From: Candidatus Rokuibacteriota bacterium
GTDB lineage: Bacteria; Methylomirabilota; Methylomirabilia; Rokubacteriales; CSP1-6
Direction of reading: 5' to 3'
Length of the DNA: 64,000 nucleotides
Assembly (NCBI GenBank): GCA_016184365.1
Contig: JACPCW010000072.1
Span: 17,341-81,340, forward strand
Of this stretch, positions 4,795 through 53,168 are shown in pieces. How positions within the stretch are numbered: position 1 is the stretch's first letter; each line of letters opens with the position of its first letter. The position numbers and the translations under genes are program-made. The notes below the pieces were generated by a model. It saw only the letters and a list, made by a program, of their open reading frames with translations, searched no databases and had not been told where the DNA came from.

Positions 4795-5394
4795 ATGCCC
4801 GTCCCGATCGACCCCGCGCGCGACGCGCTCGTCATCGTCGACGTTCAGAACGACTTTTGCCCCGGCGGCGCGCTCGCGGTCAACGCCGGCGACGAGGTCG
4901 TGCCGGTGATGAACCGCTATGCCGAGCGGTTCGCGCGCGCGGGCGCGCCGGTGTTCGCGTCGCGCGACTGGCATCCCCGGCAGACGAAGCATTTCAAGGA
5001 GTGGGGCGGCGTCTGGCCGCCGCACTGCGTGCAGGGGACGCGCGGCGCCGAGTTCCATCCCGCGCTCTCGCTGCCGCCGCGGACCGAGATCGTCTCGAAG
5101 GGCATGGATCCCGATGCGGACGCGTACTCGGCGTTCCAGGCGGAGACTTCGGATGGCACGCCCTTCGCCAACGCGCTCGCGTCGCGCGGGGTCCGGCGCC
5201 TGTTCATCGGCGGGCTCGCGACCGACTACTGCGTGAAGGCCACCGTGCTCGACGCGCGGAAGCACGGCTTCGAGGCGTTCGTGCTCGACGATGCCTCGCG
5301 CGCGGTCGAGGTGGCCGCGGGTGACGGCGCGCGCGCGGTCGACGAGATGACGACGGCTGGCGCGCGCCTGCTGCGGAGGACCGAGCTCGCGTGA
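4795..5394 (+). CDS. pncA: Nicotinamidase/isochorismatase-family hydrolase
   Basis: ALVIVDVQNDFCPGGALAV...SRDWHP...HCVQGT...GLATDYCVKATVLDA. Confidence 0.88.
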   Translation: MPVPIDPARDALVIVDVQNDFCPGGALAVNAGDEVVPVMNRYAERFARAGAPVFASRDWHPRQTKHFKEWGGVWPPHCVQGTRGAEFHPALSLPPRTEIVSKGMDPDADAYSAFQAETSDGTPFANALASRGVRRLFIGGLATDYCVKATVLDARKHGFEAFVLDDASRAVEVAAGDGARAVDEMTTAGARLLRRTELA

Positions 5395-6596
5395 TCCACG
5401 CCGGCTCCGGTCTCGCCGTGTCGGCCACGCCGGACGACGCGGCGCTCGAAGCGTCGCTGGCCGCGATCCAGGCGTCGGGCACGGATCGCGCGGACCTCGC
5501 GCTCGTGTTCGCGAGCGGCGCGGAAGCCGGCGATCGCGCGCACGCCGTGCTCCATGCCGTACGCCGCGCCACCGGCGCGCGCGCCGTCGTGGGCTGCACC
5601 GGTGTCGGCGTGCTCACCGAGCGGCGCGAGGTCGAGGGCGACACGGCGGCCGCGGTCCTCACGGTCGCACGCGACGGCCTCGTCGTGACGCCGTTCCTGC
5701 TGCCCGATCTCGAAACCATCGGTGCCGACGCCGGGTCGCGCCTCGCCGTCGCGACCGCCGAGACGGTGCTCGAGAGCGGGTCGGTGATCCTGCTGCCGGA
5801 CGCGCGCGGCCTCGATCCGTGGGCGCTGCTCACGCGCTTCGACGCGGCGATGGGGTACGTGCCGATCGTCGGCGCCGTCGCCGCCGGCCCGGCGCTCGTC
5901 GAGTTCTGCAACACGGACGTCACGCAGGGCGGGGTCGCCGGCCTCGCGCTCTCCGGCGAGGAGCCCGTGATCGGCGTCGCGCAGGGTTGCATGCCGATCG
6001 GCGAGCCGTACGTGATCACGGCCGCCGAGGGCACCGTGATCCACTCGATCGGCAGCCGCCGCGCGCTGGTCGTGCTGAAGGAGGCGATCGAGACCCTGCC
6101 GAATCCGAACGAGCGGATCCAGCGCGCGGGGCTCTTCGCCGGCCTCGCCATCGATCCGGCGAAGTCGCCGCTCGAGCGCGGCGACTTCCTCGTGCGCCAT
6201 CTCGTGGCGATCGACCAGTCGAGCGGCGCGATCGCCGTGGGCGACCAGGTGCGCGTCGGTCAGACGATCCAGTTCCAGATCCGCGACGCCGAGGCCGCGC
6301 GCGACGATCTGGCCGCGATGCTGGCGGGTGTCGTGCGCCGGCTCGATGGACGCCGGCCCGCGTTCGGCTGCTACTTCAACTGCGCCGGCCGCGGCGAGGG
6401 GCTCTACGGCAAGCCGGACCACGACGTCACGATGATCCGCGAACGGCTCGGCCCGGTCCCGCTCGCCGGCTTCTTCGGCAACGGCGAGTTCGCGCCGATC
6501 GCGCGCCGGAACCTCTTCCACACGTACACGGGCGTACTCGTGATCTTTCCAGATGGGGGCCCCGACATGGCCCCCATGCCCCCCGACGCTCGGTAG
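5391..6596 (+). CDS. FIST domain signal-transduction protein
   Basis: FIST N and C domain pattern (VVGCTGVGVL; FGCYFNCAGRGEGLYGKPDHDVTMIRERLGPVPLAGFFGNGEFAPI); C-terminus GGPDMAPMPPDAR is repeat-derived. Confidence 0.85.
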   Translation: MIHAGSGLAVSATPDDAALEASLAAIQASGTDRADLALVFASGAEAGDRAHAVLHAVRRATGARAVVGCTGVGVLTERREVEGDTAAAVLTVARDGLVVTPFLLPDLETIGADAGSRLAVATAETVLESGSVILLPDARGLDPWALLTRFDAAMGYVPIVGAVAAGPALVEFCNTDVTQGGVAGLALSGEEPVIGVAQGCMPIGEPYVITAAEGTVIHSIGSRRALVVLKEAIETLPNPNERIQRAGLFAGLAIDPAKSPLERGDFLVRHLVAIDQSSGAIAVGDQVRVGQTIQFQIRDAEAARDDLAAMLAGVVRRLDGRRPAFGCYFNCAGRGEGLYGKPDHDVTMIRERLGPVPLAGFFGNGEFAPIARRNLFHTYTGVLVIFPDGGPDMAPMPPDAR

Positions 6597-6624
6597 CGCC
6601 CCGGGGAACCCGGGGCGCTCCTCG
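6553..6624 (+). repeat. Dispersed double-hairpin repeat, copy 1
   Basis: gggggccccgacatggcccccatgccccccgacgctcggtagcgccccggggaacccggggcgctcc. Confidence 0.85.
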
Positions 6625-7518
6625 GTGAAGCTTCCGCACGTCGCGCTCGCCGTGCTCGTCGCCGGCATGTGGGGCCTCGCGTTCGTCGCGACGCGCATGG
6701 CGCTCGACGACTTCTCGCCGCCGCAGCTCGCCGCGGCGCGGTTTCTCGTCGCGTGCGCGCCCGCGCTGCTGCTGCCGCGGCCCCGCATTCCGTGGGCGCT
6801 GCTCATCGCCACCGGCCTGACGCTGTTCGCCGCGCAGTTCCTGCTGCAGTTCTTCGGGATCGCGCTCGGCATGCCGCCGGGCCTCGCGTCGGTCGTCATG
6901 CACACGCAGGCGTTCTACACGATCGCCTTCGCCGCGCTCGTGCTGCGCGAGTGGCCGACCGGTCGCCAGCTCGCGGGCGCCGTCGTGGCCGCCGGCGGCG
7001 TGGTCGCGATCGGACTGACGGTGGGTCAGGACCTCACGGTGATCGGTCTCGTGCTCACGAGCCTGTCGGCGATGAGCTGGGGGGTCGGCAACATTCTCCT
7101 GAAGCGGCTGCCGCCGGTGCCGATCCTCAATCTCGTCGTGTGGCTGAGCCTCGTTCCGCCGCTGCCGGCGCTGGCGGTGGCGCTCGCCCTGGACGGCCCG
7201 CTGGCGATCGGCGACGCGATCGCGGGGGCGAGCTGGCGCGGCGTCGCGTCCGTGCTCTATCTCGGCGTCATCGGCAACATCGTCGCGTACGCGATCTGGG
7301 GCGCGCTGCTGCGCCAGTATCCCGCCGCCACCGTCACGCCGTTCGCGCTGCTCGTGCCCTTCGTCGCGTCGTATGCGTCGTCGATCGCGTTCGACGAACG
7401 GTTCGGTGCGCTGCGGCTCGGCGGCATGGCGCTCGTGCTGCTCGGGCTCGCGATCATCGTCGTCCCGCTCGGACGGGTCGCGCGCGGCGTGCCGGCCGCA
7501 TCGCGGAGCCCGTCATGA
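6625..7518 (+). CDS. EamA/DMT-family transporter
   Basis: Ten hydrophobic segments; two EamA-like halves; GTG start directly after the repeat. Confidence 0.88.
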   Translation: MKLPHVALAVLVAGMWGLAFVATRMALDDFSPPQLAAARFLVACAPALLLPRPRIPWALLIATGLTLFAAQFLLQFFGIALGMPPGLASVVMHTQAFYTIAFAALVLREWPTGRQLAGAVVAAGGVVAIGLTVGQDLTVIGLVLTSLSAMSWGVGNILLKRLPPVPILNLVVWLSLVPPLPALAVALALDGPLAIGDAIAGASWRGVASVLYLGVIGNIVAYAIWGALLRQYPAATVTPFALLVPFVASYASSIAFDERFGALRLGGMALVLLGLAIIVVPLGRVARGVPAASRSPS

Positions 7519-8123
7519 GAGGGTGCGAGCAGATTCCGTGGCTCTACGACGCGCTCTGCACCGTGTGCGAGGCGACCGGATTCAAGCGGTGGCGGCAATG
7601 GCTCGCCACGGGCGCACGCGGTCGCACCCTCGACCTCGGCTGCGGTACGGGGCGGAACCTGCCGCTCTTTCCCTCCGGCGTGCGCGCCGTCGGCGTCGAT
7701 CCGGAGCGCGCGTCGCTCCGCCGCGCACGCCGGCGCTCGCGCGGCACGCCGCTCGTGCAGGCGCGCGCCGAAGCGCTGCCATTCCGCGACGGCGTCTTCG
7801 ACACCGTCGTCACCGGTCTCGTGTTCTGTTCGGTCTCCGACCCGATGCGCGGGCTCGCGGAGGTCAAGCGCGTCCTCGCGCCGAACGGCACGCTCCGCAT
7901 GCTCGAGCACGTGCGTTCGACGAAGCCGTGGAAGGCGCGGTTCCAGGACTGGATCCAGCCCGCGTGGACGCGAGCGAGCGGCGGCTGCCATCCGAATCGC
8001 GACACCGAGCGGACGGTCACCGCGGCGGGATTCGCGATCGACGAGCGAACGCGCCGCGCGAAGGCGGACATGCGGCGCTTCGAGGCGCGACCGGCGCGAG
8101 GCGGTGAGTACAATCGATCATGA
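7515..8123 (+). CDS. Class I SAM-dependent methyltransferase
   Basis: TLDLGCGTGRNLPLF...GVDPE...LPFRDGVFDTVV. Confidence 0.88.
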   Translation: MRGCEQIPWLYDALCTVCEATGFKRWRQWLATGARGRTLDLGCGTGRNLPLFPSGVRAVGVDPERASLRRARRRSRGTPLVQARAEALPFRDGVFDTVVTGLVFCSVSDPMRGLAEVKRVLAPNGTLRMLEHVRSTKPWKARFQDWIQPAWTRASGGCHPNRDTERTVTAAGFAIDERTRRAKADMRRFEARPARGGEYNRS

Positions 8124-8830
8124 GCACGAAGCCACGCCGCGAGCCGAGTCTTCCCGACCTGTCGAGGTACGGACGGCTCGCCGAGTACCGGGCGAAGCGC
8201 CGCTTCGACGTCACGCCGGAACCGCCGCCGCGTCTCGCGCGCGCCGTGAAAACGGCCGCCACGGCCAGCCCGAAGCTGGAGTTCGTCGTCCAGAAGCACC
8301 GCGCCGGACATCTGCACTACGACTTTCGTCTCGAGCACGAAGGCGTGATGCTCTCGTGGGCCGTACCCAAAGGTCCCGCGCCCGATCCCGCCGTCAAGCG
8401 GCTCGCGATGCAGACCGAGCCGCATCCCATGGACTACAACCAGTTCGAAGGCGTGATTCCCGAGGGCGAATACGGCGGCGGCACCGTCATGATCTGGGAT
8501 CGCGGCACCTGGACGCCGGAATCGAGCGACGTCGGCCGCGCGCTCGCGAAGGGCGACCTCAAATTCCGGCTCGACGGGCGGAAGCTGAAGGGCTCGTGGG
8601 TGCTCGTGCGCACGCACGGCCGGCAGTGGCTGCTCATCAAGCACCGCGATGCGCACGCGTCGAGCGAGGATCTGACGGCGACGAAGCCGCGGTCCGTCGT
8701 CTCGCGCCGCACCCTGGCGGCGATCGCGCGCGCGGCCGGCGCGTCGCCGCGTCAGCTCGAGCAGGCCGCCGCCGCCGATGTGCCGCGGGATGCGGCCGCG
8801 CCTGCGGCGACGCAGCACCGCGCGCGTTAG
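8120..8830 (+). CDS. LigD-type 3'-phosphoesterase domain protein
   Basis: EFVVQKHRAGHLHYDFRLEHEGVMLSWAVPKGP...MDYNQFEGVIPEGEYGGGTVMIWDRGTW. Confidence 0.9.
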   Translation: MSTKPRREPSLPDLSRYGRLAEYRAKRRFDVTPEPPPRLARAVKTAATASPKLEFVVQKHRAGHLHYDFRLEHEGVMLSWAVPKGPAPDPAVKRLAMQTEPHPMDYNQFEGVIPEGEYGGGTVMIWDRGTWTPESSDVGRALAKGDLKFRLDGRKLKGSWVLVRTHGRQWLLIKHRDAHASSEDLTATKPRSVVSRRTLAAIARAAGASPRQLEQAAAADVPRDAAAPAATQHRAR

Positions 8831-8850
8831 TGTCCGCCGAAGCGCGTGGT

Positions 8851-8926
8851 CGAGGAGCGCCACGGCTTCGCCGGGGCGCTTCCGAGCGCGAGAGGATCCG
8901 GGGGGCCATGTCGGGGCCCCCCATCT
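8851..8926 (-). repeat. Dispersed double-hairpin repeat, copy 2
   Basis: gagcgccacggcttcgccggggcgcttccgagc...ggggggccatgtcggggcccccc; supplies the ATG of the downstream ligase. Confidence 0.8.
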
Positions 8927-9831
8927 CGATCCGTCCGATGCTCGCCACCCTCGTCGGCGAGCCGTTCCACCGTGAGGGCTGGGTCTACGAGGAGAAGTAC
9001 GACGGCTTCCGCATCGTCGCGTACAAGGACGGCCGCCGCGTCACGCTGATGACCCGGAATCTCAAGGACCGGACCGGCGACTTTCCGGATCTCGCGGCCG
9101 CGGTCGCGAAGCTTGCCGCGCCCACGCTCGTGCTCGACGGCGAGGTCGTGATCTTCGATCCCGAAGGCATCTCACGGTTCCAGCTGATGCAGCGTCGTGC
9201 CGAGGGCGCCGCGGTCTACGTGGTCTTCGACTGTCTCTTCGCGCGCGGCCGCGACCTGCGCGCGCGGCCGCTCCGCGAGCGCCGCCAGGCGCTCGAGGCC
9301 GAGGTGCGCGAGAGCGAGACGCTGCGGCTCGCACGGCGGTTGTCGGACGACGGCCTCGCCGCGTTTCGCGAGGCGAAGAAGCGCGGCCTCGAGGGCCTGA
9401 TCGCGAAGGACGGCGCGTCGCACTACGAAGACGGCGCGCGGTCGATGGCGTGGCGCAAGGTGAAGGTCCGCAACGAAGAGGAATTCGTCATCGGTGGATT
9501 CACGCGTCCGGAGGGATCACGCAGTCACTTCGGCGCGATCCTCGTCGGCGCGTGGCAGCGCGGCACGCTGCGGTACGCGGGCAAGGTCGGCACCGGCTAC
9601 ACGGCGAAGATGCTGGCGGACCTGATGGCGCGCTTCCATCCGCTCGTGCGTCCGACGTCGCCGTTCGCCGATGCGCCGCGCGAGCGGCGCGTGACGTGGC
9701 TCGAGCCGTCGCTGATCGCGCAGGTCGGGTTCACGGAGCTCACCGACGACGGCCGGCTTCGCCACCCGACGTTTCTGGGGCTGCGGGACGACAAGGCCGC
9801 GAGCGAGGTGCGCTGGCCACGCCGGGGCTGA
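8908..9831 (+). CDS. ATP-dependent DNA ligase (LigD ligase-domain type)
   Basis: MSGPPISIRPMLA...WVYEEKYDGFR (KxDG nucleotidylation motif) ...LDGEVVIFD...EGLIAKDGASHYEDGARSMAWRKVK. Confidence 0.9.
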   Translation: MSGPPISIRPMLATLVGEPFHREGWVYEEKYDGFRIVAYKDGRRVTLMTRNLKDRTGDFPDLAAAVAKLAAPTLVLDGEVVIFDPEGISRFQLMQRRAEGAAVYVVFDCLFARGRDLRARPLRERRQALEAEVRESETLRLARRLSDDGLAAFREAKKRGLEGLIAKDGASHYEDGARSMAWRKVKVRNEEEFVIGGFTRPEGSRSHFGAILVGAWQRGTLRYAGKVGTGYTAKMLADLMARFHPLVRPTSPFADAPRERRVTWLEPSLIAQVGFTELTDDGRLRHPTFLGLRDDKAASEVRWPRRG

Positions 9832-20801: not shown

Positions 20802-21623
20802 CTAAACGCCCGCAAGCCGCGCGAGCTCGGCGAACGACGTCACGATCGCGTCCGCGCGCGCGTCCGGCGGCGCGCCCTCAGGCGCGTACAGCACCGTGCG
20901 CATGCCCACGCGGCGACCGCCTTCGATGTCCGACGGCAGGCTGTCTCCCACCATGGCGGCTTCGTGCGCGGCGAGCCCCAGGCGCTTGAGCGCCATGTGG
21001 AACAGCGGGGCTTCGGGCTTGCCGACGACGATCGGCTGCACCCCCGCCGCCGCGGCGACCGCCGCGATGATCGCGCCGCACCCGGGAAGGAACTCGCCGC
21101 CCTCCACGGGAAGTCGCGGATCGACGTTCGGCGTGACGAGCGGCGCGCCGGCCGCGGCAGCGCGCGCGGCGACGGTCAGCCGCTCGTAGGACAGATCGAA
21201 GTCGTTGCCGACGGCGACGACCGTGGCGCGGCGGTAGTCCTTCACGTCGACGATCTCGTGCCCGGCGCGGCGCACCATGTCCGCGAGCTCGTCGGCGCCG
21301 ATCACCAGCACGCGTGAGCGTCCGAACCGCTCCGCGATCGTCTCGCCGATGATGTCGAGCGGCGTGAGCGTGGCGTCGCCCGCCGTGACGCCGAGCCCTT
21401 CGAGCTTTCGACGGATGTCGGCGCCCGTCGCGCGGGAGTTGTTGGTGATGAAGCCGAGCTTGCGGCCGGCGGCGTGCAGCGCGCGCAGACAGTCGCCGGC
21501 GCCGGGGCTCAGAACATCGCCGGTCCAGACGCAGCCGTCGAGGTCGAACACGAACCCGCGCAGGTAGCGGAGCGCCCCGGGTCCCCCGGGGCGCTCCGAG
21601 GGCGGGGGGGGGGGGGGGGCCAT
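20802..21623 (-). CDS. HAD-IIA family hydrolase
   Basis: RGFVFDLDGCVWTGD...FITNNSRATG...GDSLPSDIEGGRRVGMRTVLV-like; likely start ATG lies inside the repeat. Confidence 0.85.
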   Translation of the reverse strand: MAPPPPPPSERPGGPGALRYLRGFVFDLDGCVWTGDVLSPGAGDCLRALHAAGRKLGFITNNSRATGADIRRKLEGLGVTAGDATLTPLDIIGETIAERFGRSRVLVIGADELADMVRRAGHEIVDVKDYRRATVVAVGNDFDLSYERLTVAARAAAAGAPLVTPNVDPRLPVEGGEFLPGCGAIIAAVAAAAGVQPIVVGKPEAPLFHMALKRLGLAAHEAAMVGDSLPSDIEGGRRVGMRTVLYAPEGAPPDARADAIVTSFAELARLAGV

Positions 21624-21640
21624 GTCGGGGCCCCCCACGT
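21569..21640 (-). repeat. Dispersed double-hairpin repeat, copy 3 (contains G16 tract)
   Basis: ggagcgccccgggtcccccggggcgctccgagggcG16ccatgtcggggcccccc. Confidence 0.85.
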
Positions 21641-22809
21641 CAATCACAATCCCGCTTGAACTCCTCGACGGCGTCGCGGTACGTGTGCTCGGTGCGCTCG
21701 GCGACGCTGGCCCAGCTGAACTTGTCCTCGACGCGCTTGCGGCCGGCCTGACCCATCGCGCGCGCGCGGTCCGGATCGTCGAGGAGCTTGCGGATCGCGC
21801 CCGCGAGGTCGTCCGGCCGCGCGGGCGGGACGAGCAGCCCGGTGACGCCGTCGTCGACGACTTCCAGGATGCCGCCGACCGCGGACGCGACGACCGCAGT
21901 GCCGCACGCCATCGCCTCGAGATTGATGAGACCGAACGGCTCGTAGACGGACGGGCAGGCGAAGACGGCGGCGTGGCTGTAGAGCTGGACGACTTCGTCG
22001 ACCGGCACCATCGCCGGGATCCACGTGACGTTCTTGTGGTTCGGCAGCGCGGCCTTCAAGCGCTCTTCGATCTCCGGCGTGTCCGGCGCCGAGGCGCACA
22101 GCACGACCTGCACCCCCTGCGGCATCTTCGGCGCGGCTTCGAGGAGATGGAAGATGCCCTTCTGGTCGGTGATGCGGCCCACGAACAGCACGTACGGCGG
22201 CTTCACGCCCCACTTCGCGAGCGCATCGCGCTTGTCCGTGCGCTTGAAGCGATCCGGATCGATGCCGTTGTGGATCGTGATCACCTTCGCGGGATCGACC
22301 GAGAAGTGCGTCACGATGTCGTCGCGCATCTTCGCCGACACGGCGATGACGCGATCCGCGGACTCCACGGCCGTCTTTTCGATCCACGTCGAGACGAGAT
22401 AGCCGGTGCCGAGCTGGTCGGCCTTCCATGGGCGCAGCGGCTCCATGCTGTGGAGCGTGACGATCAGCGGGATCCGATGAACCATGCGGATCCAGAGCCC
22501 CGCCATGTCGGCGTACCAGGTGTGGGCGTGCGCGACGTCGGCGTCGACGGGGTCGCGCGCCATCGCGAGCCCGATCGACATCGTTTCGAGCGCGGGCGCG
22601 TAGCGCGGCCCGTCCTTGTCCGCCTTCAGACGCTCCCACGGCGTGTAGCCGCGCAGCGCGATGTCGTCCGTGCGCGGGTCGCGCGGACCGAAGCACCGGA
22701 CCTCGACCTGCATGCGGCGCGCGAGCGCGATGGAGAGCTGATCGACGACGACGCCGGCGCCGCCGTAGATGTGCGGCGGATATTCACGCGTGAGGAGCAG
22801 CGTCTTCAT
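21640..22809 (-). CDS. Glycogen synthase-like glycosyltransferase
   Basis: MKTLLLTREYPPHIYGGAGVVVDQL...HAHTWYADMAGL...NGIDPDRFK...PSVYEPFGLINLEAMACGTAVVAS. Confidence 0.88.
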   Translation of the reverse strand: MKTLLLTREYPPHIYGGAGVVVDQLSIALARRMQVEVRCFGPRDPRTDDIALRGYTPWERLKADKDGPRYAPALETMSIGLAMARDPVDADVAHAHTWYADMAGLWIRMVHRIPLIVTLHSMEPLRPWKADQLGTGYLVSTWIEKTAVESADRVIAVSAKMRDDIVTHFSVDPAKVITIHNGIDPDRFKRTDKRDALAKWGVKPPYVLFVGRITDQKGIFHLLEAAPKMPQGVQVVLCASAPDTPEIEERLKAALPNHKNVTWIPAMVPVDEVVQLYSHAAVFACPSVYEPFGLINLEAMACGTAVVASAVGGILEVVDDGVTGLLVPPARPDDLAGAIRKLLDDPDRARAMGQAGRKRVEDKFSWASVAERTEHTYRDAVEEFKRDCD

Positions 22810-24520: not shown

Positions 24521-25554
24521 CAGTTCGGCACCTGCCGGCGGATCCACGGGCCGACCGCGTTCGCGATCGGCACCGGCACGCGCTTCCAGAGCTCGATCAT
24601 GCGCTCGTACCGGCTCCGGTCGCGCTCGACCGAGGGCGCGGCGCCGGGCGCCAGGTCGACGAACATCCACGGCAGCACGTACGGCTCCGCGCCCCACTGG
24701 CGCTTGAACTCGAACGTGCCGGCGTTCTTGAACGACCGGCCGAGATCGAGCACGCGATAGCCGTTGCGGCATCCGAACCGGATGACTTCCCAGTAGAGGA
24801 CGAAATTCGGACAGAGCGAGAACGCGTCGCGGAGCGACGACACCCACGGGACCATGATCGCGTCGCGGAAGAACAGGCAGATCGCCGCGCCGATCGCGCG
24901 GCCCGGCGTGTCGCGCACGATGAGAATGCGCGCCGTGCCCGGCAGCTCGTCGAGCATGGCGCGGAAGTACGCGCGGCTGTGGACCGGCGAGCCGAGGTCC
25001 CGCATGTTGACCGCGAAGACCTGGTAGAACTCCTCGAGCGCTTCCGTGCCGCACCAGTGCGCGGTGAGTCCGTTCTTCTCGCCCTTGCGGACGCGGTTGC
25101 GGCGCTCGGACGGCAGCGCCTTCCAGACGGCGTCCTCGGCGGTGAGGGTCAGCAGCATCGTGACGCGGTCTTCGGCGGTGGGGTAGGGCAGCGGCGTCGG
25201 CTCGAGCTGCCGAAGCCCGAGGCTGTGCGCGCCGAGGTCGCGCGCCACGCCGAGCGCGGTGTCCACGAGCCGCGTTTCGATGCCGCGGTTCGGCTCGGCG
25301 ACGATGCCGCCGTAGTCGAGGAACGGCATCGACGCGAGGCGATGGCCGAAGATGCGGCTGCGGATCATGACGAGCGGCAGCGCGCCGACGATCTCGCCGG
25401 CGTCTTCCGCGGTCAGGTAGATGGGCTCGTGGCCGTACGCGCGCTGCACCACGCGGCCCCACCCGGACAGATGCGCCACGGTCGACGACGCGTGGCGTTC
25501 GACGAACCGGTCCCAGCTCTTGTCGACGTCGGACGTGCGGAGAATTCGGATCAT
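24520..25554 (-). CDS. FemAB-like/GNAT protein of exosortase-EPS type loci
   Basis: SERRNRVRKGEKNGLTAHW...LGSPVHSRAYFRAML...WEVIRFGCRNGYRVLDLGRSFKNAGTFEFKRQWGAEP. Confidence 0.88.
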   Translation of the reverse strand: MIRILRTSDVDKSWDRFVERHASSTVAHLSGWGRVVQRAYGHEPIYLTAEDAGEIVGALPLVMIRSRIFGHRLASMPFLDYGGIVAEPNRGIETRLVDTALGVARDLGAHSLGLRQLEPTPLPYPTAEDRVTMLLTLTAEDAVWKALPSERRNRVRKGEKNGLTAHWCGTEALEEFYQVFAVNMRDLGSPVHSRAYFRAMLDELPGTARILIVRDTPGRAIGAAICLFFRDAIMVPWVSSLRDAFSLCPNFVLYWEVIRFGCRNGYRVLDLGRSFKNAGTFEFKRQWGAEPYVLPWMFVDLAPGAAPSVERDRSRYERMIELWKRVPVPIANAVGPWIRRQVPN

Positions 25555-27987: not shown

Positions 27988-29235
27988 ATGTGGCTCCTGC
28001 TCTTGATGATCTTCATCATGCCGTTCGAGACGAACCCCTATCTCAAGATCTCGGACAGCTTTCTCGGTGTCTTCCAGGACTTCACCGTCATCAAGCTGCT
28101 CGGCATGATCGGCTTCGGATGGGCGGTCGCGCGCGTCCTGCAGGGCGGCGACGACGAGGGCCTCTTCGGGTCGCGGCAGGCCAAGCTCTTCCTCGCGCTC
28201 TACGCCGGCATCCTGTTCGCCGGCCTGCTGTCCGGGTCGGGCTTCCTCGTCATCTCGCGCTATCTCGCGTTCATGCTGTTCATGCCGTTCGTGCTGGCGT
28301 CGATCCGCACGCACGACGATCTGCGCCGCGTGATCTACGCCCTGGCGCTCACGTTCGTCGTCGTGTTCCCGTACGCGCTGCGGCAGATGTACCGGTACGG
28401 CGCGCGCCTCGGCACGGGCGTCAGCGAGACGAACTACTTCGCCGCGAACCTCGTCCTCGTCATTCCCATCGCCTTCGCGATCGCGCTCACGCAGGTCGAT
28501 CCGATGAAGCGGAAGCTGTGGTTCAGCGGCGGCCTCGTGCTGTGCCTGGCGCTGTTCCTCACGTCGTCGCGCGGCGGCTTCCTCGGGCTGCTCGTCGCGG
28601 GGGTCGCATACGCGTACCGTCGGCGCGGCCTGATGGGCGCGGTCACGGTGCTGACGATCCTGGTCCTGGCCGTCCTGCCCACGGGCATCGGCGAGCGGAC
28701 GATCGCGTCGATCACCGGCACGGCGCACGAGACGCCGGGTCTCGAGCAGTCGAACCGCGCGCACACCGGCCTCCTGAAGGCCGGCTTCCGGATGGTCGCC
28801 GACGCGCCGATCACCGGCGTGGGCCCGCAGAACTTCAAGGCGCTCTCCCTCAAGTACGCGCCGGAGCTCGACCGCGCCTTCATCGCGCACAACACCTATC
28901 TCGAGCTGGCCGCCGAGACCGGCATTCCGGTGCTCGTGCTGTTCCTGCTGCTGCTCTGGCAGGTGTACCGCACGTTCAATCGCGCCACGCAGCTGCGCGG
29001 CTCGCCCGAGGCGCGCGAGCTCGCGACGCTGGCGGAGGGCCTGCGCTGCGGACTCCTCGGCTTCGTCGTGTCGGCGTCCTTCATCAGCGCCCAGTACGAG
29101 AAGCTGTTCTGGGTGACCGTCTTCGTGTCGATCGCCGTCGAGCGCGCCGTGAGCCGCTACGAGCGGCGGGTCGCGGAGCAGGCGACCGTGCCTGATCCAC
29201 TCGCGTTCACGCCGGCCGGAGCTCCGGCCCGATGA
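27988..29235 (+). CDS. O-antigen ligase-family membrane protein
   Basis: Polytopic; SSRGGFLGLLVAG and GVGPQNFKAL...AHNTYLELAAETGIPVL. Confidence 0.88.
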   Translation: MWLLLLMIFIMPFETNPYLKISDSFLGVFQDFTVIKLLGMIGFGWAVARVLQGGDDEGLFGSRQAKLFLALYAGILFAGLLSGSGFLVISRYLAFMLFMPFVLASIRTHDDLRRVIYALALTFVVVFPYALRQMYRYGARLGTGVSETNYFAANLVLVIPIAFAIALTQVDPMKRKLWFSGGLVLCLALFLTSSRGGFLGLLVAGVAYAYRRRGLMGAVTVLTILVLAVLPTGIGERTIASITGTAHETPGLEQSNRAHTGLLKAGFRMVADAPITGVGPQNFKALSLKYAPELDRAFIAHNTYLELAAETGIPVLVLFLLLLWQVYRTFNRATQLRGSPEARELATLAEGLRCGLLGFVVSASFISAQYEKLFWVTVFVSIAVERAVSRYERRVAEQATVPDPLAFTPAGAPAR

Positions 29236-31259
29236 CGGTGATGACGCGGCTCTCCGTCGCGCTGCTCACCGGGCTGCTCGTGGTCGCGGGCGCGGCGTTC
29301 GCGCAGAACGGCGGCCTGACGGCGCTGCCGCCGCTCGGCGCCGCGCAGAACCTCGTGCAGGACGGCAGCTTCGAATCGAGCGGCGCGTGGCGCGTCCGTC
29401 CGGAGGCCGCGTTCGCCGTCGACGCCGGCGGCCGCTCCGGGAAGGCCCTCCGGATGGCGGGCGCGGACCGCGACGCCGGCGTCGCCACCGCCGATCAGAC
29501 GGTCACGCTCGAGCCGGGCTTCCACACGATCCAGGGCTGGGTGAGGACGGAGAAGGTCGGGACGGCGTCGCCGCGGACCGGCGTGCGCCTCTGCCTCGAC
29601 GGCCGGCCGCGCGTGAACTGGTGGAAGTGCACCGGGGTCGCGCGCGAGACGAAGGCGTGGACCGAGTTCTCGCGGGTGGCGGTCTCGGTGCCCGAGGCGG
29701 GACCGTATCGCGTGACGGTCGGCGCGTACGGCAAGCCCGACGGCGTCGCCTGGTTCGACGACGTCGCGGTCACGCGCGTGAAGGCGCCGCCGCTCGACGC
29801 GTTCCTGCTGTATCCGAACTATCGCGGCACGCTGTGGGACGACCGGCCGCAGACGATCCGCGTGTCGCTCGCGGTCGCGCCCGACGCGCCACGCGGCGCC
29901 GAGCGGATCCGCGTGTCCGTCGTCGAGGAATCCGGCGGCGCGGTCCGCGCGCATCGTGACTGGCCCGCGAGCAGCGCGCGCGGCAAGCGGCTGGTGGGCG
30001 AGCTCGACGCGGGCCCGCTCGGCCACGGCGAATACCTGCTGCGCGCCGCGCTGCTCGATGCGAGCGGCACCAGCGTCTTCGCCTATCCCGAGCATCGGAT
30101 CGCGAAGATGCCGGCGAAGAGCCGCCGGAAGCTGAACGCGTGGGTCGACGAGACGAACGTCACGCACCTCGGCGGCAAGCCGGCGTTCGTGCTCGGCCTC
30201 TACAACACGTCGGGCTTCTCGACGAACCGCGCCGCCTATGCCGCGGGCAGGGACGGCTGGGGCAACGACCGCATCGGCGAGGCGCCCTTCAACATGCTGA
30301 TCAACTACCACCTCGGCGCCACGCCGATCCCGGCGCTGAACGTCTACATGGACGATCTGCACGCGCGGGGGATCTATTACCTCCAGACCGTGAACTTCTA
30401 TCACGAGGCGCACCCGCAGTACCGGAAGCTGCCGTACGACGCGATCCGCGACGGCGAGGACGCGCTGAACCGGTGGGTGGGGAAGACGCTCGCGAAGCAT
30501 CCCGGTCTCGCCGGCTTTTACACCGCGGACGAGCGCACGGCCGACATGGTTCCGACCGTGTTCCGCCAGCATCGCGAGCTGCGCCGTGCGGCGCCCGGCA
30601 CGCTCGACTACGCCGTGCTCGGCAACGGCTGGCAGGACCAGGCGCCGCTCTGGCGTGACGCCGCCGACGTGCTCGGTCTCGATCCGTATCCCATCGTGAA
30701 GCCCGGTGACAACCACCTGGCGATGGTCGGCGAGTGGACGCGCATCGGTCAGGATGCGGTGATGGGCGCGCGGCCGCTCTGGATGGTGATCCAGTACTTC
30801 CCGGTCACGCGGCAGGGCGGCTGGCCGTCGCGCGAGGACCTCCGCACGATGAGCTGGATGGCGATCGTCGAGGGCGCCAAGGGCCTCTTCTACTGGTCGT
30901 TCGGGGTGAAGGGCCTCGCGTGGGTGAAGGATCCCGACGAGAAGATGAAGCGCTGGCAGGATCTCGTCGCGGTGACGAAGGAGATCAAGGCGCTCGAGCC
31001 CGTGCTGCTCGCGCCGGACGCCGCCGTCGTGCGCGAGGCGCCCGCGCCGATTCGCGTGCTCGGAAAGAAGATGCCCGACGGCACGCGCTATCTCTTCGCG
31101 TACAACACCACCGGGAAGGACGCGCCCGTGCGCCTGACGCTCACCGAGGTCGCGCGCGAAGTCGCGGCGATCGGCGGCGGAGCCGCGGGCAAGCTCGACG
31201 GCTCGACGCTGACCGACACGTTCGGCCCCTACCAGGTGAAGCGGTACTCCATTCGATAG
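29232..31259 (+). CDS. Secreted glycoside-hydrolase-like protein with N-terminal CBM-like region
   Basis: Signal peptide; NLVQDGSFESSGAWRV CBM-like; YTADERT...DVLGLDPYPI...GAKGLFYWSFG barrel-like. Confidence 0.65.
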   Translation: MTVMTRLSVALLTGLLVVAGAAFAQNGGLTALPPLGAAQNLVQDGSFESSGAWRVRPEAAFAVDAGGRSGKALRMAGADRDAGVATADQTVTLEPGFHTIQGWVRTEKVGTASPRTGVRLCLDGRPRVNWWKCTGVARETKAWTEFSRVAVSVPEAGPYRVTVGAYGKPDGVAWFDDVAVTRVKAPPLDAFLLYPNYRGTLWDDRPQTIRVSLAVAPDAPRGAERIRVSVVEESGGAVRAHRDWPASSARGKRLVGELDAGPLGHGEYLLRAALLDASGTSVFAYPEHRIAKMPAKSRRKLNAWVDETNVTHLGGKPAFVLGLYNTSGFSTNRAAYAAGRDGWGNDRIGEAPFNMLINYHLGATPIPALNVYMDDLHARGIYYLQTVNFYHEAHPQYRKLPYDAIRDGEDALNRWVGKTLAKHPGLAGFYTADERTADMVPTVFRQHRELRRAAPGTLDYAVLGNGWQDQAPLWRDAADVLGLDPYPIVKPGDNHLAMVGEWTRIGQDAVMGARPLWMVIQYFPVTRQGGWPSREDLRTMSWMAIVEGAKGLFYWSFGVKGLAWVKDPDEKMKRWQDLVAVTKEIKALEPVLLAPDAAVVREAPAPIRVLGKKMPDGTRYLFAYNTTGKDAPVRLTLTEVAREVAAIGGGAAGKLDGSTLTDTFGPYQVKRYSIR

Positions 31260-31263
31260 TACC

Positions 31264-31331
31264 CGGGGGCCCCGACATGGCCCCCAGACCCCCCGCGCTC
31301 GGAAGCGCGCCGGGGGAACCCGTCGCGCTCC
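31264..31331 (+). repeat. Dispersed double-hairpin repeat, copy 4
   Basis: gggggccccgacatggcccccagaccccccgcgctcggaagcgcgccgggggaacccgtcgcgctcc. Confidence 0.85.
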
Positions 31332-31585
31332 GATGCGTTGCTCGCCGACGAGGCGGCGCGGCTCGGCATCCGGACCGCGGGCGACCTCTTCGGCGGCATC
31401 GTGCCGTTTCCGTTCGTCGGCACGAAAGCGATCACGCACGCGCTCGTCTCGCCGCAGGCGGAGCGGCCGACCGGGTGGTCGGAGGCGTTCTCGGCGCGCA
31501 CGGCCTCGGTCGTCCTGCCCGGATCCCGCATCCGGTCGTCGCGAACTATCTCGCTGCGTTCCGCCGGTCGGCCGCGTCCGTGACG
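31332..31585 (+). pseudogene. Gene remnant abutting the repeat
   Basis: SDALLADEAARLGIRTAGDLFGGIVPFPFVGTKAITHALVSPQAERPTGWSEAF then loss of coherent frame; no N-terminus. Confidence 0.4.
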
Positions 31586-41056: not shown

Positions 41057-41750
41057 GGCGGGCGCGGATCAGGGCCGCGGCGACCTCCACGAGCGGCTCG
41101 AGCCGCCCGGTGTTTTTCAGCACGACGTCGGCGAGGGTCTTCGTCGGCTCGACGTAGCGCACGTGCGCCGGCATGACGGTCTCGGCGTACTGCCGCAGCA
41201 CCGACGCCGACGCGCGGCCGCGCTCGATCGTGTCGCGGGCGAGCCGACGGCGGAGGCGTAGCAGGCTCGGCGCGTCGACGAAGATCGCGAGATCCAGCAG
41301 CGCGCGGACCGCGGGGTCGTGGAGGAGCAGGATGCCGTCGACGAGCACGAAGGTGCGCGGCTCGACGGCGTCGGCATCGCCATCCCGCCGGTGCGTCACG
41401 AAGCAGTACCGCGGCGGGCACACGCGCTCACCACGACGAAGCCGCGCGAGATCGTCGCGGAACCGCAGCCCGTCGAGCGCGTCCGGCACGTCGAAGTCGA
41501 GCGCGGCGCGCTCGGTCTCGTCGAGATCACTGCGATCCCGGTAGTACGCGTCGTGGCAGAGCACCGACGTGTGCTCGCGCCCGAGCTCGTCGGCGACGAG
41601 CCGTACGAGCGTCGACTTGCCGCTGCCGCTCCCGCCGGTCACTCCGACCACGAACGGGGGGGCCCCGACATGGCCCCCCCGACCCCCCGACGCTCGACCG
41701 TCCCCGGGGAACCCGGGGCCGGTCTCGAATTCCGTGCGCTCTCCGCTCAT
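41010..41750 (-). CDS. Uridine kinase/phosphoribulokinase-like P-loop kinase
   Basis: VVGVTGGSGSGKSTLVRLVADEL...HDAYYRDRSDLDETERAALDFDVPDALD; N-terminus repeat-derived or start downstream. Confidence 0.85.
   Translation of the reverse strand: MSGERTEFETGPGFPGDGRASGGRGGHVGAPPFVVGVTGGSGSGKSTLVRLVADELGREHTSVLCHDAYYRDRSDLDETERAALDFDVPDALDGLRFRDDLARLRRGERVCPPRYCFVTHRRDGDADAVEPRTFVLVDGILLLHDPAVRALLDLAIFVDAPSLLRLRRRLARDTIERGRASASVLRQYAETVMPAHVRYVEPTKTLADVVLKNTGRLEPLVEVAAALIRARRAGREEVRTGARLLA
41655..41722 (+). repeat. Dispersed double-hairpin repeat, copy 5
   Basis: cgggggggccccgacatggcccccccgaccccccgacgctcgaccgtccccggggaacccggggcc. Confidence 0.85.
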
Positions 41751-43790: not shown

Positions 43791-44907
43791 CGAGTCCGCC
43801 TCCGAGCTTGAAGCTGACGTACTTCCGCCAGCCGTCCGGCTCTTCGGCCACGGCCGCGCCGTTGCGATCGTCGTCGTTGAAGACGAGACCGAGCACGCGG
43901 TGCCGGCCGATCGTGTCGAGCCCGTCGACGAGCCCCTCACGCGGCGTGCGGTTGGCGCGCACGATCATCACGAAGCCGTCGACGGCGTCGCGGAGGATGC
44001 CGACGTCGGGGAACAGCAGCACCGGCGGGGTATCGACGACGACGAAGTCGAAGCGGGTCCGCAGCGTCTGGAAGAGCTGGGTGAACCGCGGCGACTTCAG
44101 GAGCTCGTACGGCATCGACGACACCGGACCGGCGGGCACCACCGAGAAAGCGATGCTCGACGGCTTCTCGATGACGTCGTCGGGCGTCAGACCGGCGTCG
44201 AGCAGATAGCTCGAGATGCCCCGGGCGGACGCGAGGCCGAGGTAATCGGCCACGCGCGGGTGGCGCAGGTCGGCGTCGACGAGCACGACCTTCGCGTCGG
44301 GCGCCTGACCGAGCGCGCCGGCCAGGTTGATCGCGCTGATCGTCTTGCCTTCGCCGCGGCCCGCGCTGGAGACCGCGACGACGTGCAGGCCGCGCTCGCG
44401 ACGGAAGTTCTCGATCGCCAGACGCACGGTGCGGTACTGCTCGGCCGCGAAGCCCGTCGGCGCGAGCAGGCTGACCAGGTGGTCATCGAGCTGACCCGCC
44501 TCGCGGATCTGCGACGACGTGTCGCCGACGAAGATGTCGGCGTGGCGGCTCTTCTTCTTCGACCGCGCCATCGGCGAGCCGAAGGTGCGCATCGGGTCGG
44601 CCGGCTTCTCCGGCGCGGTCACGGTCTCGGCGCGCGCCGCGGGGCGCGTGTCCATCACGGCCGGCGCGGTCGCCGCCTCGGCTCGCGGCGCCGGCGCGGC
44701 GCGCAGCGCGGAGTCGAGACGGGCGTGGGGTTCCCCCACGGCCGTCGAGCGTCGGGGGGGCGGGGGGGCCATCTCGGGGCCCTCCCGGTCAATGATCGCG
44801 TCCGCCGTCGGCGTGGTGGGCTCGGCCGGCCCGGTCGGTCCTCCGACCGTCTCGGCCTGCGCCCGCTCCCTCTCGGCGTTCTCCAGGGCTTGGAAGAACT
44901 TGCTCAC
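43783..44907 (-). CDS. CpsD/CapB-like tyrosine autokinase (EPS)
   Basis: VVAVSSAGRGEGKTISAINLAGALGQ...VVLVDADLRHPRVADYLGL...FDFVVVDTPPV. Confidence 0.9.
   Translation of the reverse strand: MSKFFQALENAERERAQAETVGGPTGPAEPTTPTADAIIDREGPEMAPPPPRRSTAVGEPHARLDSALRAAPAPRAEAATAPAVMDTRPAARAETVTAPEKPADPMRTFGSPMARSKKKSRHADIFVGDTSSQIREAGQLDDHLVSLLAPTGFAAEQYRTVRLAIENFRRERGLHVVAVSSAGRGEGKTISAINLAGALGQAPDAKVVLVDADLRHPRVADYLGLASARGISSYLLDAGLTPDDVIEKPSSIAFSVVPAGPVSSMPYELLKSPRFTQLFQTLRTRFDFVVVDTPPVLLFPDVGILRDAVDGFVMIVRANRTPREGLVDGLDTIGRHRVLGLVFNDDDRNGAAVAEEPDGWRKYVSFKLGGGLVD
44724..44790 (-). repeat. Dispersed double-hairpin repeat, copy 6, in frame inside the BY-kinase CDS
   Basis: Encodes DREGPEMAPPPPRRSTAVGEPHARL within the linker before the P-loop domain. 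Confidence 0.85.
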
Positions 44908-51293: not shown

Positions 51294-51552
51294 ACCCCTG
51301 CAACGCGTCGCGGAAGCGCGTGATCTTGCGCGGTCTTGCTGCATCGGTGGCGCGGGGTCGAGGGGAAGGGGTCACGCGAACGGGGCGCAATTCAGCAACA
51401 CGATGCAGCGCGCGTAGGCACGCGCTTGCACCGATCCGCGCGTTTTCACATGGACTTCGCGCGCGTGAAAGAGCACTTCGTCACCCGATGTAGGGCGACG
51501 CGTTCAGTCGCTCACGCCGCGATCACGCGCGCGGTGCCGCGGTCACTCCGGA

Positions 51553-51697
51553 GGGCGAGGGGGGCGGGGGTTCGCCCGGAATTCCGCGCTCGCTCTCATG
51601 CGCTCGGCGTAGCGACCGCAGGGCATCACGCCACGCTGCGTCCGTACCGTGGTCGAAGCCAAACGGAATTCCGGACGAACCCCCGCCCCCCTCGCCC
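51553..51697. repeat. 34-bp inverted repeat pair with 77-bp spacer
   Basis: gggcgaggggggcgggggttcgcccggaattccg (51553-51586) vs cggaattccggacgaacccccgcccccctcgccc (51664-51697): 33/34 complementary. Confidence 0.85.
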
Positions 51698-51804
51698 CGC
51701 CGAGTCCGCACCACGCGCGTCGAGCACCGCGAGCACATGGAATACGGCGAGACATCGAGTACCACGACCGCGAGATCGGCAACAGGTCCGAGCGGGAAAA
51801 CGAA

Positions 51805-51872
51805 ACGGCCCCGGGTTCATCCCGGGGCCGTTGAGCGTTGGGGGTATGGGGGCCATGTCGGGGCCCCCATCC
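51805..51872 (-). repeat. Dispersed double-hairpin repeat, copy 7, terminator-like
   Basis: Minus strand: ATGGGGGCCCCGACATGGCCCCCATACCCCCAACGCTCAACGGCCCCGGGATGAACCCGGGGCCGTTTCGTTTT. Confidence 0.85.
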
Positions 51873-51884
51873 AGCTAGGCCGTC

Positions 51885-53168
51885 CTAATCCCAGCGGATC
51901 GGGTACCCCACGAGGATGCCGACGAACACGCGGTTCTGATCGACGTCACGGCCGAGCGGCTCGCCCGTCGTCGGGCTGCGGAGCGTGCCGTCCGACACCT
52001 GGTGGAGCAGCGCGTAGCCGGCGGTGACGGCGAACCACGGCGTCATCTGGTACGTCGCGCGGATCGGCAGCGAGAACGTCTTCACGTCGATCGTGTTGTC
52101 GTGCGGCGACTCGGACGTGCGGTACTGCGGCAGCGCCTCGATCGTCAGCCCGCGCATGAGCGTGGCGACGATGACGCTTGCGCCGAACGTCTGGTTGTCG
52201 GCGATGCCGCCCAGCCCGCCCGCGGTGGTGACTTCGCGCGCGTACAGCACGCCGGTCTCGCCCCAGGCGTACCGCTTGCGCAGCGACGCGAAGAGGAAGG
52301 GCGCCACGCGCGTGTCGTCGTCGCGGAACTCGATCGTCGGGCCGCCGGTGATCGATCCCGTGAGGGTCGGCGTGAACTCGTACGTCAGGCCCACGCGGGG
52401 CGTGTGGGTGGTCGCGTCCTCTTCGTCTTCGATGTCGAAGTACGCCACCTGGTAGCCGAGCGAGCCGCGGAAGCGCGGCGTGAAGGTGCGCTCGACCTCG
52501 ACGTCACCCCGGTAGGTGTCCGAGTCGCGCAGGTCGCGCGAGTCGAAGCGCTGCGCCGTCCACGCGCCGAACGTGCGGAACGCCGTCAGCCGGTCGAGCT
52601 GCCACGCGGCGCCCGGCCGGACCGTGTTGCTCCACGCCTGGTCGCGGCCGGTCACGACGCCTTCCGGCGAGAACGCGTTCACGCCGGTGTTGAAGGTGAA
52701 CATGTCGTCGAGCGACAGCGTCAGCGTCGGATCCGGGCGGTAGAAGCTGTCCATCACGAACCGCTGACGGTCGAACCCTTCGTTGCGGTCCGGCTCGCGC
52801 ATGTACAGCCGCGCGTCGAACTCGTAGCCGACGTTGAAGCGGTAGGTCGGACGCTCGGCGGTGAACGTGAGGCCCGGCGTGAGGACGGTGATGAGATCCC
52901 AGTCGCGCCGGCGATTGTCCATCAGGACGTTGTCGTTGAACTCCTCGGCGACGCCGAGCGTCGGGGTCAGCGTGATCGGCGCGCGCAGGGGCTGCTGGAG
53001 CGGTGGCTGGCCGCCAGTGCGCGCCGGCGGCTCGGTGCCGGGCAGCGGGCGCTGCAGAAGCGGAGCCGTCTGCGCCGTCGCGAGCGCAGGAGCGACCGCG
53101 ACAGCGAAGAGCAGGGACACCACCGCAACAGCAGGCCGGGTCCGGCACCACAACGGGGCGGGGGTCAC
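51885..53168 (-). CDS. Outer-membrane beta-barrel protein (EPS-associated)
   Basis: Signal peptide; TLGVAEEFNDNVLMDNRRRDWDLITVLTPGLTF; alternating beta-strand pattern, ends YPIRWD. Confidence 0.85.
   Translation of the reverse strand: MTPAPLWCRTRPAVAVVSLLFAVAVAPALATAQTAPLLQRPLPGTEPPARTGGQPPLQQPLRAPITLTPTLGVAEEFNDNVLMDNRRRDWDLITVLTPGLTFTAERPTYRFNVGYEFDARLYMREPDRNEGFDRQRFVMDSFYRPDPTLTLSLDDMFTFNTGVNAFSPEGVVTGRDQAWSNTVRPGAAWQLDRLTAFRTFGAWTAQRFDSRDLRDSDTYRGDVEVERTFTPRFRGSLGYQVAYFDIEDEEDATTHTPRVGLTYEFTPTLTGSITGGPTIEFRDDDTRVAPFLFASLRKRYAWGETGVLYAREVTTAGGLGGIADNQTFGASVIVATLMRGLTIEALPQYRTSESPHDNTIDVKTFSLPIRATYQMTPWFAVTAGYALLHQVSDGTLRSPTTGEPLGRDVDQNRVFVGILVGYPIRWD

Follow-up and report, generated by a model that had tools for sequence, protein, structure and literature searches.

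Non-autonomous IS200/IS605 derivatives have a hairpin near each end, fixed cleavage tetranucleotides and an AT-rich left flank, and show no consistent target duplication. The BOX, RUP and RU sequences of other bacteria are intergenic non-autonomous repeats of approximately 100 bp that are able to extend reading frames. The GTAG REPs are dispersed palindromes that are located at the 3′ ends of genes, seldom occur where genes diverge, and can supply the stop codon of an ORF (PMC3733652). For the CGTC REPs a dedicated transposase is not known, and frequent G-T pairs in REPs have been interpreted as pointing to a function as RNA (PMC3733652).

The element described here is a two-hairpin repeat of approximately 75-100 bp found in an uncultured soil/groundwater bacterium of the Candidatus Rokuibacteriota, and it is a new family, of two-hairpin design, that behaves like a REP/MITE-type dispersed element. 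The family is real: the host genome (G000; 5.58 Mb in 146 contigs, about 90% complete) includes 449 copies of a 19-nt core at up to two mismatches, 232 in forward and 217 in reverse orientation, and the reversed core used as a control gave no match at the same tolerance. Detailed surveys of copies and their context read 1.24 Mb of this genome, as stretches. In a sample of the phylum, the exact core was present in 36 of the 57 genomes of the host's family and in none of the 38 other genomes, so the copies are not limited to the DNA in which they were noticed. Three members of the host genus have 449, 412 and 55 copies (up to two mismatches), and other genomes 319, 251 and 226; the rest of the family had few or none, several relatives within it having no copies at all. 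The element-rich genomes include G000, G002, G017, G019, G034, G062 and G063, and the element-free ones G008, G016, G018, G022 and G029. A covariance model, read for presence only, found the element in 48 of the 57 family genomes, and all the matches listed in a scan of GTDB species (at least 78 stretches) belonged to Candidatus Rokuibacteriota. The best Rfam match, with E 0.28, stayed below the gathering threshold, by which a known structured RNA was rejected, and a phage or plasmid origin was rejected because the phage, plasmid and viral collections searched had no match to the element. Neither was the sequence found as a described family in the literature searched, in agreement with the first-pass annotation of this DNA, which knew of no named family.

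A scan of the window (the whole 64,000-nucleotide stretch analysed, C119:17341-81340) with GGGGCCCCGACATGGCCCC at up to three mismatches gave exactly seven matches, where 0.08 were expected from shuffles, and confirmed all the copies that had been placed at 6553, 8851, 21569, 31264, 41655, 44724 and 51805. Copy 1 (6546..6625, plus strand) is composed of the AT-rich box, hairpin 1 with its core at 6556-6574, the spacer, hairpin 2 and a TCGG end, and provides the final codons of a FIST-domain gene (5391-6596). Copy 2 (8850..8930, minus strand; core 8902-8920) is antisense and located between genes for a LigD 3′-phosphoesterase and an ATP-dependent DNA ligase, two domains that are encoded here by adjacent separate genes (8120-8830 and 8908-9831) with the element between them. 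Copy 3 (21564..21644, minus strand; core 21616-21634) is sense, immediately 3′ of the stop of a glycosyltransferase gene (21640-22809), and copy 4 (31256..31332, plus strand; core 31266-31284) lies 6 nt past the stop of the gene at 29232-31259. Copy 5 (41649..41728, plus strand; core 41659-41677) is antisense in a same-strand cluster, between uridine-kinase-like and glycosyltransferase genes. Copy 6 (44714..44793, minus strand) has a degenerate core with two mismatches (44765-44783), the other six cores being exact. Copy 7 (51800..51877, minus strand; core 51849-51867) is found 17 nt past the stop of the gene at 51885-53123 and, alone among the window copies, has a T-rich stretch after it. A long inverted-repeat-like stretch, GGGGCGAGGGGGGCGGGGGTTCGTCCGGAATTCCG ... 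CGGAATTCCGGGCGAACCCCCGCCCCCCTCGCCC, is present downstream of it at about 51490-51720 on the minus strand. The annotated occurrence in both orientations at gene borders was borne out in the window copies, as was the absence of a transposase nearby: the ten window proteins neighbouring the copies that were scanned are ordinary enzymes, transporters or unclassified, and none is a transposase.

On the left the element has a box rich in AT, which is followed by hairpin 1; a C-rich spacer, with CGCTCG at its end, then leads to hairpin 2 and to TCGA. The left box is a low-information segment from about -10 to -2 relative to the stem, with an AT fraction of 0.54 where a sense gene ends there and 0.52 where none does (52-54%), compared to 0.29 (29%) further upstream. 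Hairpin 1 has a stem of 9-10 bp, a 7-nt loop, CCGA(C/A/G/T)AT, and a near-invariant core, GGGGCCCCGA(C)ATGGCCCC, flanked by outer pairs that vary freely and are compensated (UA, CG, AU, GC). In hairpin 2, about 8 bp are usually followed by a 1x1 mismatch and then by 4 bp and a loop of 3 nt, for which GAA is the commonest sequence. Its sequence is variable, the constants being the pairing, the short loop and the bordering CGCTCG and TCGA; the CGCTCG box was missing in only one of 143 core copies (1.24 Mb). All parts of the originally annotated arrangement of hairpin 1, spacer and hairpin 2 are present in every window copy, but the sequence of hairpin 2 is not fixed. The hairpins are predicted to be stable. 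Because variants that combine another hairpin 1 loop with a normal hairpin 2 exist, the core count somewhat underestimates the size of the family. In some copies (L049, L083, L061 and G002:C73 near 174.2 kb, L151) a repeat of another kind, a second, small palindrome that resembles GGTGCGCGGACGCACC, is nested in the apex of hairpin 2. Composite elements of the genus g18 have two or three hairpin 1 units, spaced 32-71 bp, and one or no hairpin 2 (L247 4806-5024; L250 8989-9071; G019C21 24600-24743).

An alignment of 60 copies had 13 of 19 pairs changed on both sides (108 cells, compared to 29 ± 4 after shuffling), and a covariation score of 0.274 against 0.063 when shuffled and at most 0.07 in slid controls. 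One-sided changes of the G-U type were rare, with 6 cells in this alignment, and G-T amounted to 2.6% of the paired hairpin 2 positions. Given the G-T criterion of the REP literature (PMC3733652), we infer that this scarcity favours pairing at the DNA level or a templated correction of the palindrome. When the variable loop position was ignored, the 1.24 Mb contained 135, 17, 4 and 7 core matches at 0, 1, 2 and 3 mismatches, followed by background, and the reversed control 0, 0, 0 and 2. This spectrum indicates that hairpin 1 is constrained in its sequence and hairpin 2 in its structure.

Genes for the context survey were those of our own codon-usage gene caller, the start sites of which are approximate. 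At or beside gene borders were found 129 of the 136 copies placed in the 1.24 Mb, the other seven lying deep within predicted genes; with 449 copies in the genome, the element is, as a REP is, an abundant dispersed palindromic repeat that is mainly extragenic. Of the 129 intergenic copies, 60 are in antisense and 34 in sense orientation to the genes on both sides, 32 lie at convergent junctions and 3 at divergent ones. Divergent junctions are avoided, as they hold 3 of 129 copies while representing 12% of junctions (p = 8e-5) and 29% of intergenic bases (p = 6e-15). A matching pattern of placement relative to genes is found in the GTAG and CGTC REPs (PMC3733652). The excess of antisense-to-both over sense-to-both copies (60 versus 34 in the 1.24 Mb of G000, p about 0.01) is an unexplained orientation preference, and the copies have no replication-strand bias as judged by GC skew. 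Of 66 genes in the sense orientation, 45 end no more than 20 nt from the core, most commonly at -4 or -8, and the stop is TAG at 7 of the 12 -4 positions as compared to 23% TAG genome-wide; therefore the element probably often provides the stop codon. For 62 of 92 antisense genes the end lies 40-80 nt past the core, at about the right end of the element. The genes beside the elements are ordinary, such as those for ABC transporters, dehydrogenases and regulators.

Long synteny with the window was found in G002:C73, G017:C52, G028:C185 and G034:C225, and at the placeable junctions none of these four genomes has an element with a core where the window has one. G002, G017 and G028 lack copy 5 at the corresponding position, and G017 and G028 also lack copy 7, in place of which G002 has a GC hairpin with an unrelated loop. 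The junction corresponding to copy 3 is 4 nt long in G034 and in G002 holds a core-less hairpin in reverse orientation, and the elements of G002 itself sit elsewhere than those of the window. Insertion-like turnover is seen as filled and empty pairs with clean insertions of approximately 100 bp (L011/L067, L070/L065, L054/L088, and two G002 sites compared to the window), although at the 70-87% identity of these comparisons neither the exact termini nor the direction, gain or loss, is proven. L011 reads TGA, about 100 bp and a start, and the empty L067 reads TGACAACCATG, with a gap of 5 nt. One G002 insertion (near L150:12361) is located in a conserved operon, in a gene pair that overlaps in relatives, and as a consequence the upstream C-terminus becomes GGPDMAPTPP....

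Alignment scores between unlinked copies within the 1.24 Mb reach 73 of 79, and in the near-identical ones the similarity spans from a few nt left of hairpin 1 to CTCGA, the flanks being unrelated. Most compared sites are common to G019 and G062, which are 85-87% identical, and movement must therefore be slow; so copies are vertically inherited in the short term and gained or lost in the long term. Head-to-tail tandem units are common, with periods of 93-102 bp that equal the insertion size and five copies in L066, and one orthologous site has three units in L107 but a single hairpin 1 in L085. Target-site duplications showed no excess at k=4 and a weak one at k=6 only, none of them consistent. 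A single intergenic site in two species about 85% identical (G019C21 15695 and G063C150 6005; L243, L261) carries elements with near-identical hairpin 2 in opposite orientations, which suggests that the element was inverted in place or that a hot spot received insertions more than once.

We consider it probable that the repeat is a lineage-specific non-autonomous REP/MITE-like element, with a defined structure of about 75 bp and insertion units of about 97-100 bp, copied via a trans-acting enzyme. Such an enzyme would copy the element to new sites using hairpin 1, with its fixed loop (CCGACAT) and inner stem, as a sequence-specific recognition site, and hairpin 2 as a structure-only end signal beside the TCGA right end; the hairpins would act at the DNA level, possibly as single strands. 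Insertion would prefer sites rich in AT; with a genome of 71% GC, these would be largely stop codons and gene ends, and the purging of insertions in genes and promoters would leave copies at 3′ ends. Tandem arrays may come from duplication or from repeated insertion. It is a more tentative proposal that the element is active, moved by a machinery that is neither REP-RAYT/Y1 nor any IS class tested, reads one hairpin by sequence and the other by shape, and inserts at AT-rich gene ends.

The steep conservation of the core could, as a counterpoint to a mobile element, be due to selection for a host function. The repeat would then be a 3′-end element kept by selection after an ancient spread, serving to terminate transcription in both directions, to stabilise mRNA 3′ ends or to bind a nucleoid or uptake protein, with hairpin 1 as the protein-binding site. 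Copies that adjoin stop codons on either strand, stable hairpins, and the sites common to genomes about 86% identical are all consistent with this explanation, which we nevertheless regard as unlikely since a T-tract (at least 6 T among the 14 nt past hairpin 2) follows only 1 of 109 copies, copies are found within tight same-strand gene pairs (such as the pair with a 5-nt gap in the empty L067 and the G002 pair that overlaps in relatives), syntenic relatives lack the window copies, and several family genomes are devoid of the element. A canonical intrinsic terminator in particular was rejected on the scarcity of T-rich tails and because the window sites are not orthologous in the relatives; their presence at identical sites in all relatives was what the first-pass annotation had expected of ordinary terminators.

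That annotation also called for a search for an associated RAYT/TnpA-REP transposase. The Y1 transposase (RAYT/IS200 TnpA, PF01797, Y1_Tnp) had no match above the family cut-off in 14 of 15 element-rich genomes, even with matches listed to E<=1, and the sole match, in G002, is partial and at a locus without an element core. The genomes searched are drafts, 77-97% complete, and therefore a single gene missing in one of them is weak evidence, but its absence in 14 is meaningful. It is thus rather improbable that the copies are relics of a REP family that has lost its RAYT or has one too diverged to be recognised. Hairpins at both ends, the AT-rich left flank and the lack of target duplication do recall IS200/IS605-type insertion, and the distribution resembles that of the GTAG and CGTC REPs, including the group without a dedicated transposase (PMC3733652); on the other hand, no GTAG or CGTC tag beside a hairpin was seen in the profiles and alignment, and near-identical dispersed copies suggest relatively recent activity. 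The TnpB zinc-ribbon domain was found in none of nine element-rich genomes tested, and the reverse transcriptase, IS110 (PF02371) and DDE_Tnp_1 (PF01609) families are sporadic; all four were rejected as the mover, each being missing from several element-rich genomes. Two cores near such transposase- or reverse transcriptase-type genes (L293, L191) are isolated adjacencies, the one in L293 being an ordinary complete element. The 143 core copies of the 1.24 Mb included no autonomous long copy, and no gene with elements on both sides is transposase-like.

A short coding repeat adding the peptide GPDMAPxPP to proteins, as the core had also been read, is scarcely credible: although read-through takes place at some gene ends (6553; the G002 gene near L150:12361) and some predicted genes start inside the element, length differences of 1-2 nt in the spacer and the hairpins mean that no frame is kept, copies occur in both orientations and a stop is often present in the left box, making the peptide a by-product of read-through.

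With this element, of two-hairpin design and without RAYT, the range of REP-like populations of intragenomic sequences comes to include an uncultured phylum, and its approximately eightfold spread in copy number within one genus makes the spread of "transposase-less" palindromic repeats directly testable. The near-invariant 19-mer can be a metagenome marker for the host's bacterial family, and gene callers may read through the element, generating false N- or C-termini (GGHVGAP..., MGGPDMAP...). The interest would be much greater if a new type of mobilising enzyme were found.

With the non-autonomous IS200/IS605 derivatives the element shares the end hairpins, the AT-rich left flank and the lack of a consistent target duplication. 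Its right end is TCGA, and its left box has no one fixed tetranucleotide. It differs from them in that, save for the partial Y1 match of G002, neither TnpA (Y1) nor TnpB was found in the element-rich genomes tested, and a tnpA/tnpB assignment was therefore rejected. It was also rejected as a classical MITE, as its ends are different hairpins, target duplications are not consistent and no long transposase-bearing copy was found. BOX, RUP and RU (see also PMC2229807 and PMC2759123) are likewise intergenic and non-autonomous, of about 100 bp, and can extend reading frames, but they are unrelated in sequence and host, and the Rokubacteria element has no terminal inverted repeats. It is REP-like with the same gene-relative placement as the CGTC REPs, but is longer, has a second hairpin and no CGTC tag, and the 9-10 bp stem and 7-nt loop of hairpin 1 compare to stems of 8-9 bp and loops of 4-5 nt in those REPs (PMC3733652). 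In the GTAG REPs the unit is one palindrome of 20-40 bp or an inverted pair, and here it is two dissimilar hairpins; since the tag was not seen and no RAYT was found in 14 of 15 element-rich genomes, membership in the REP-RAYT system was rejected. The REP/BIME-type behaviour initially proposed for the repeat is otherwise largely supported, also by the insertion turnover: as the GTAG REPs and REPINs (RAYT, TnpA-REP), the element forms hundreds of dispersed palindromes that are located at gene 3′ ends, are few at divergent genes, and occur in tandem clusters.
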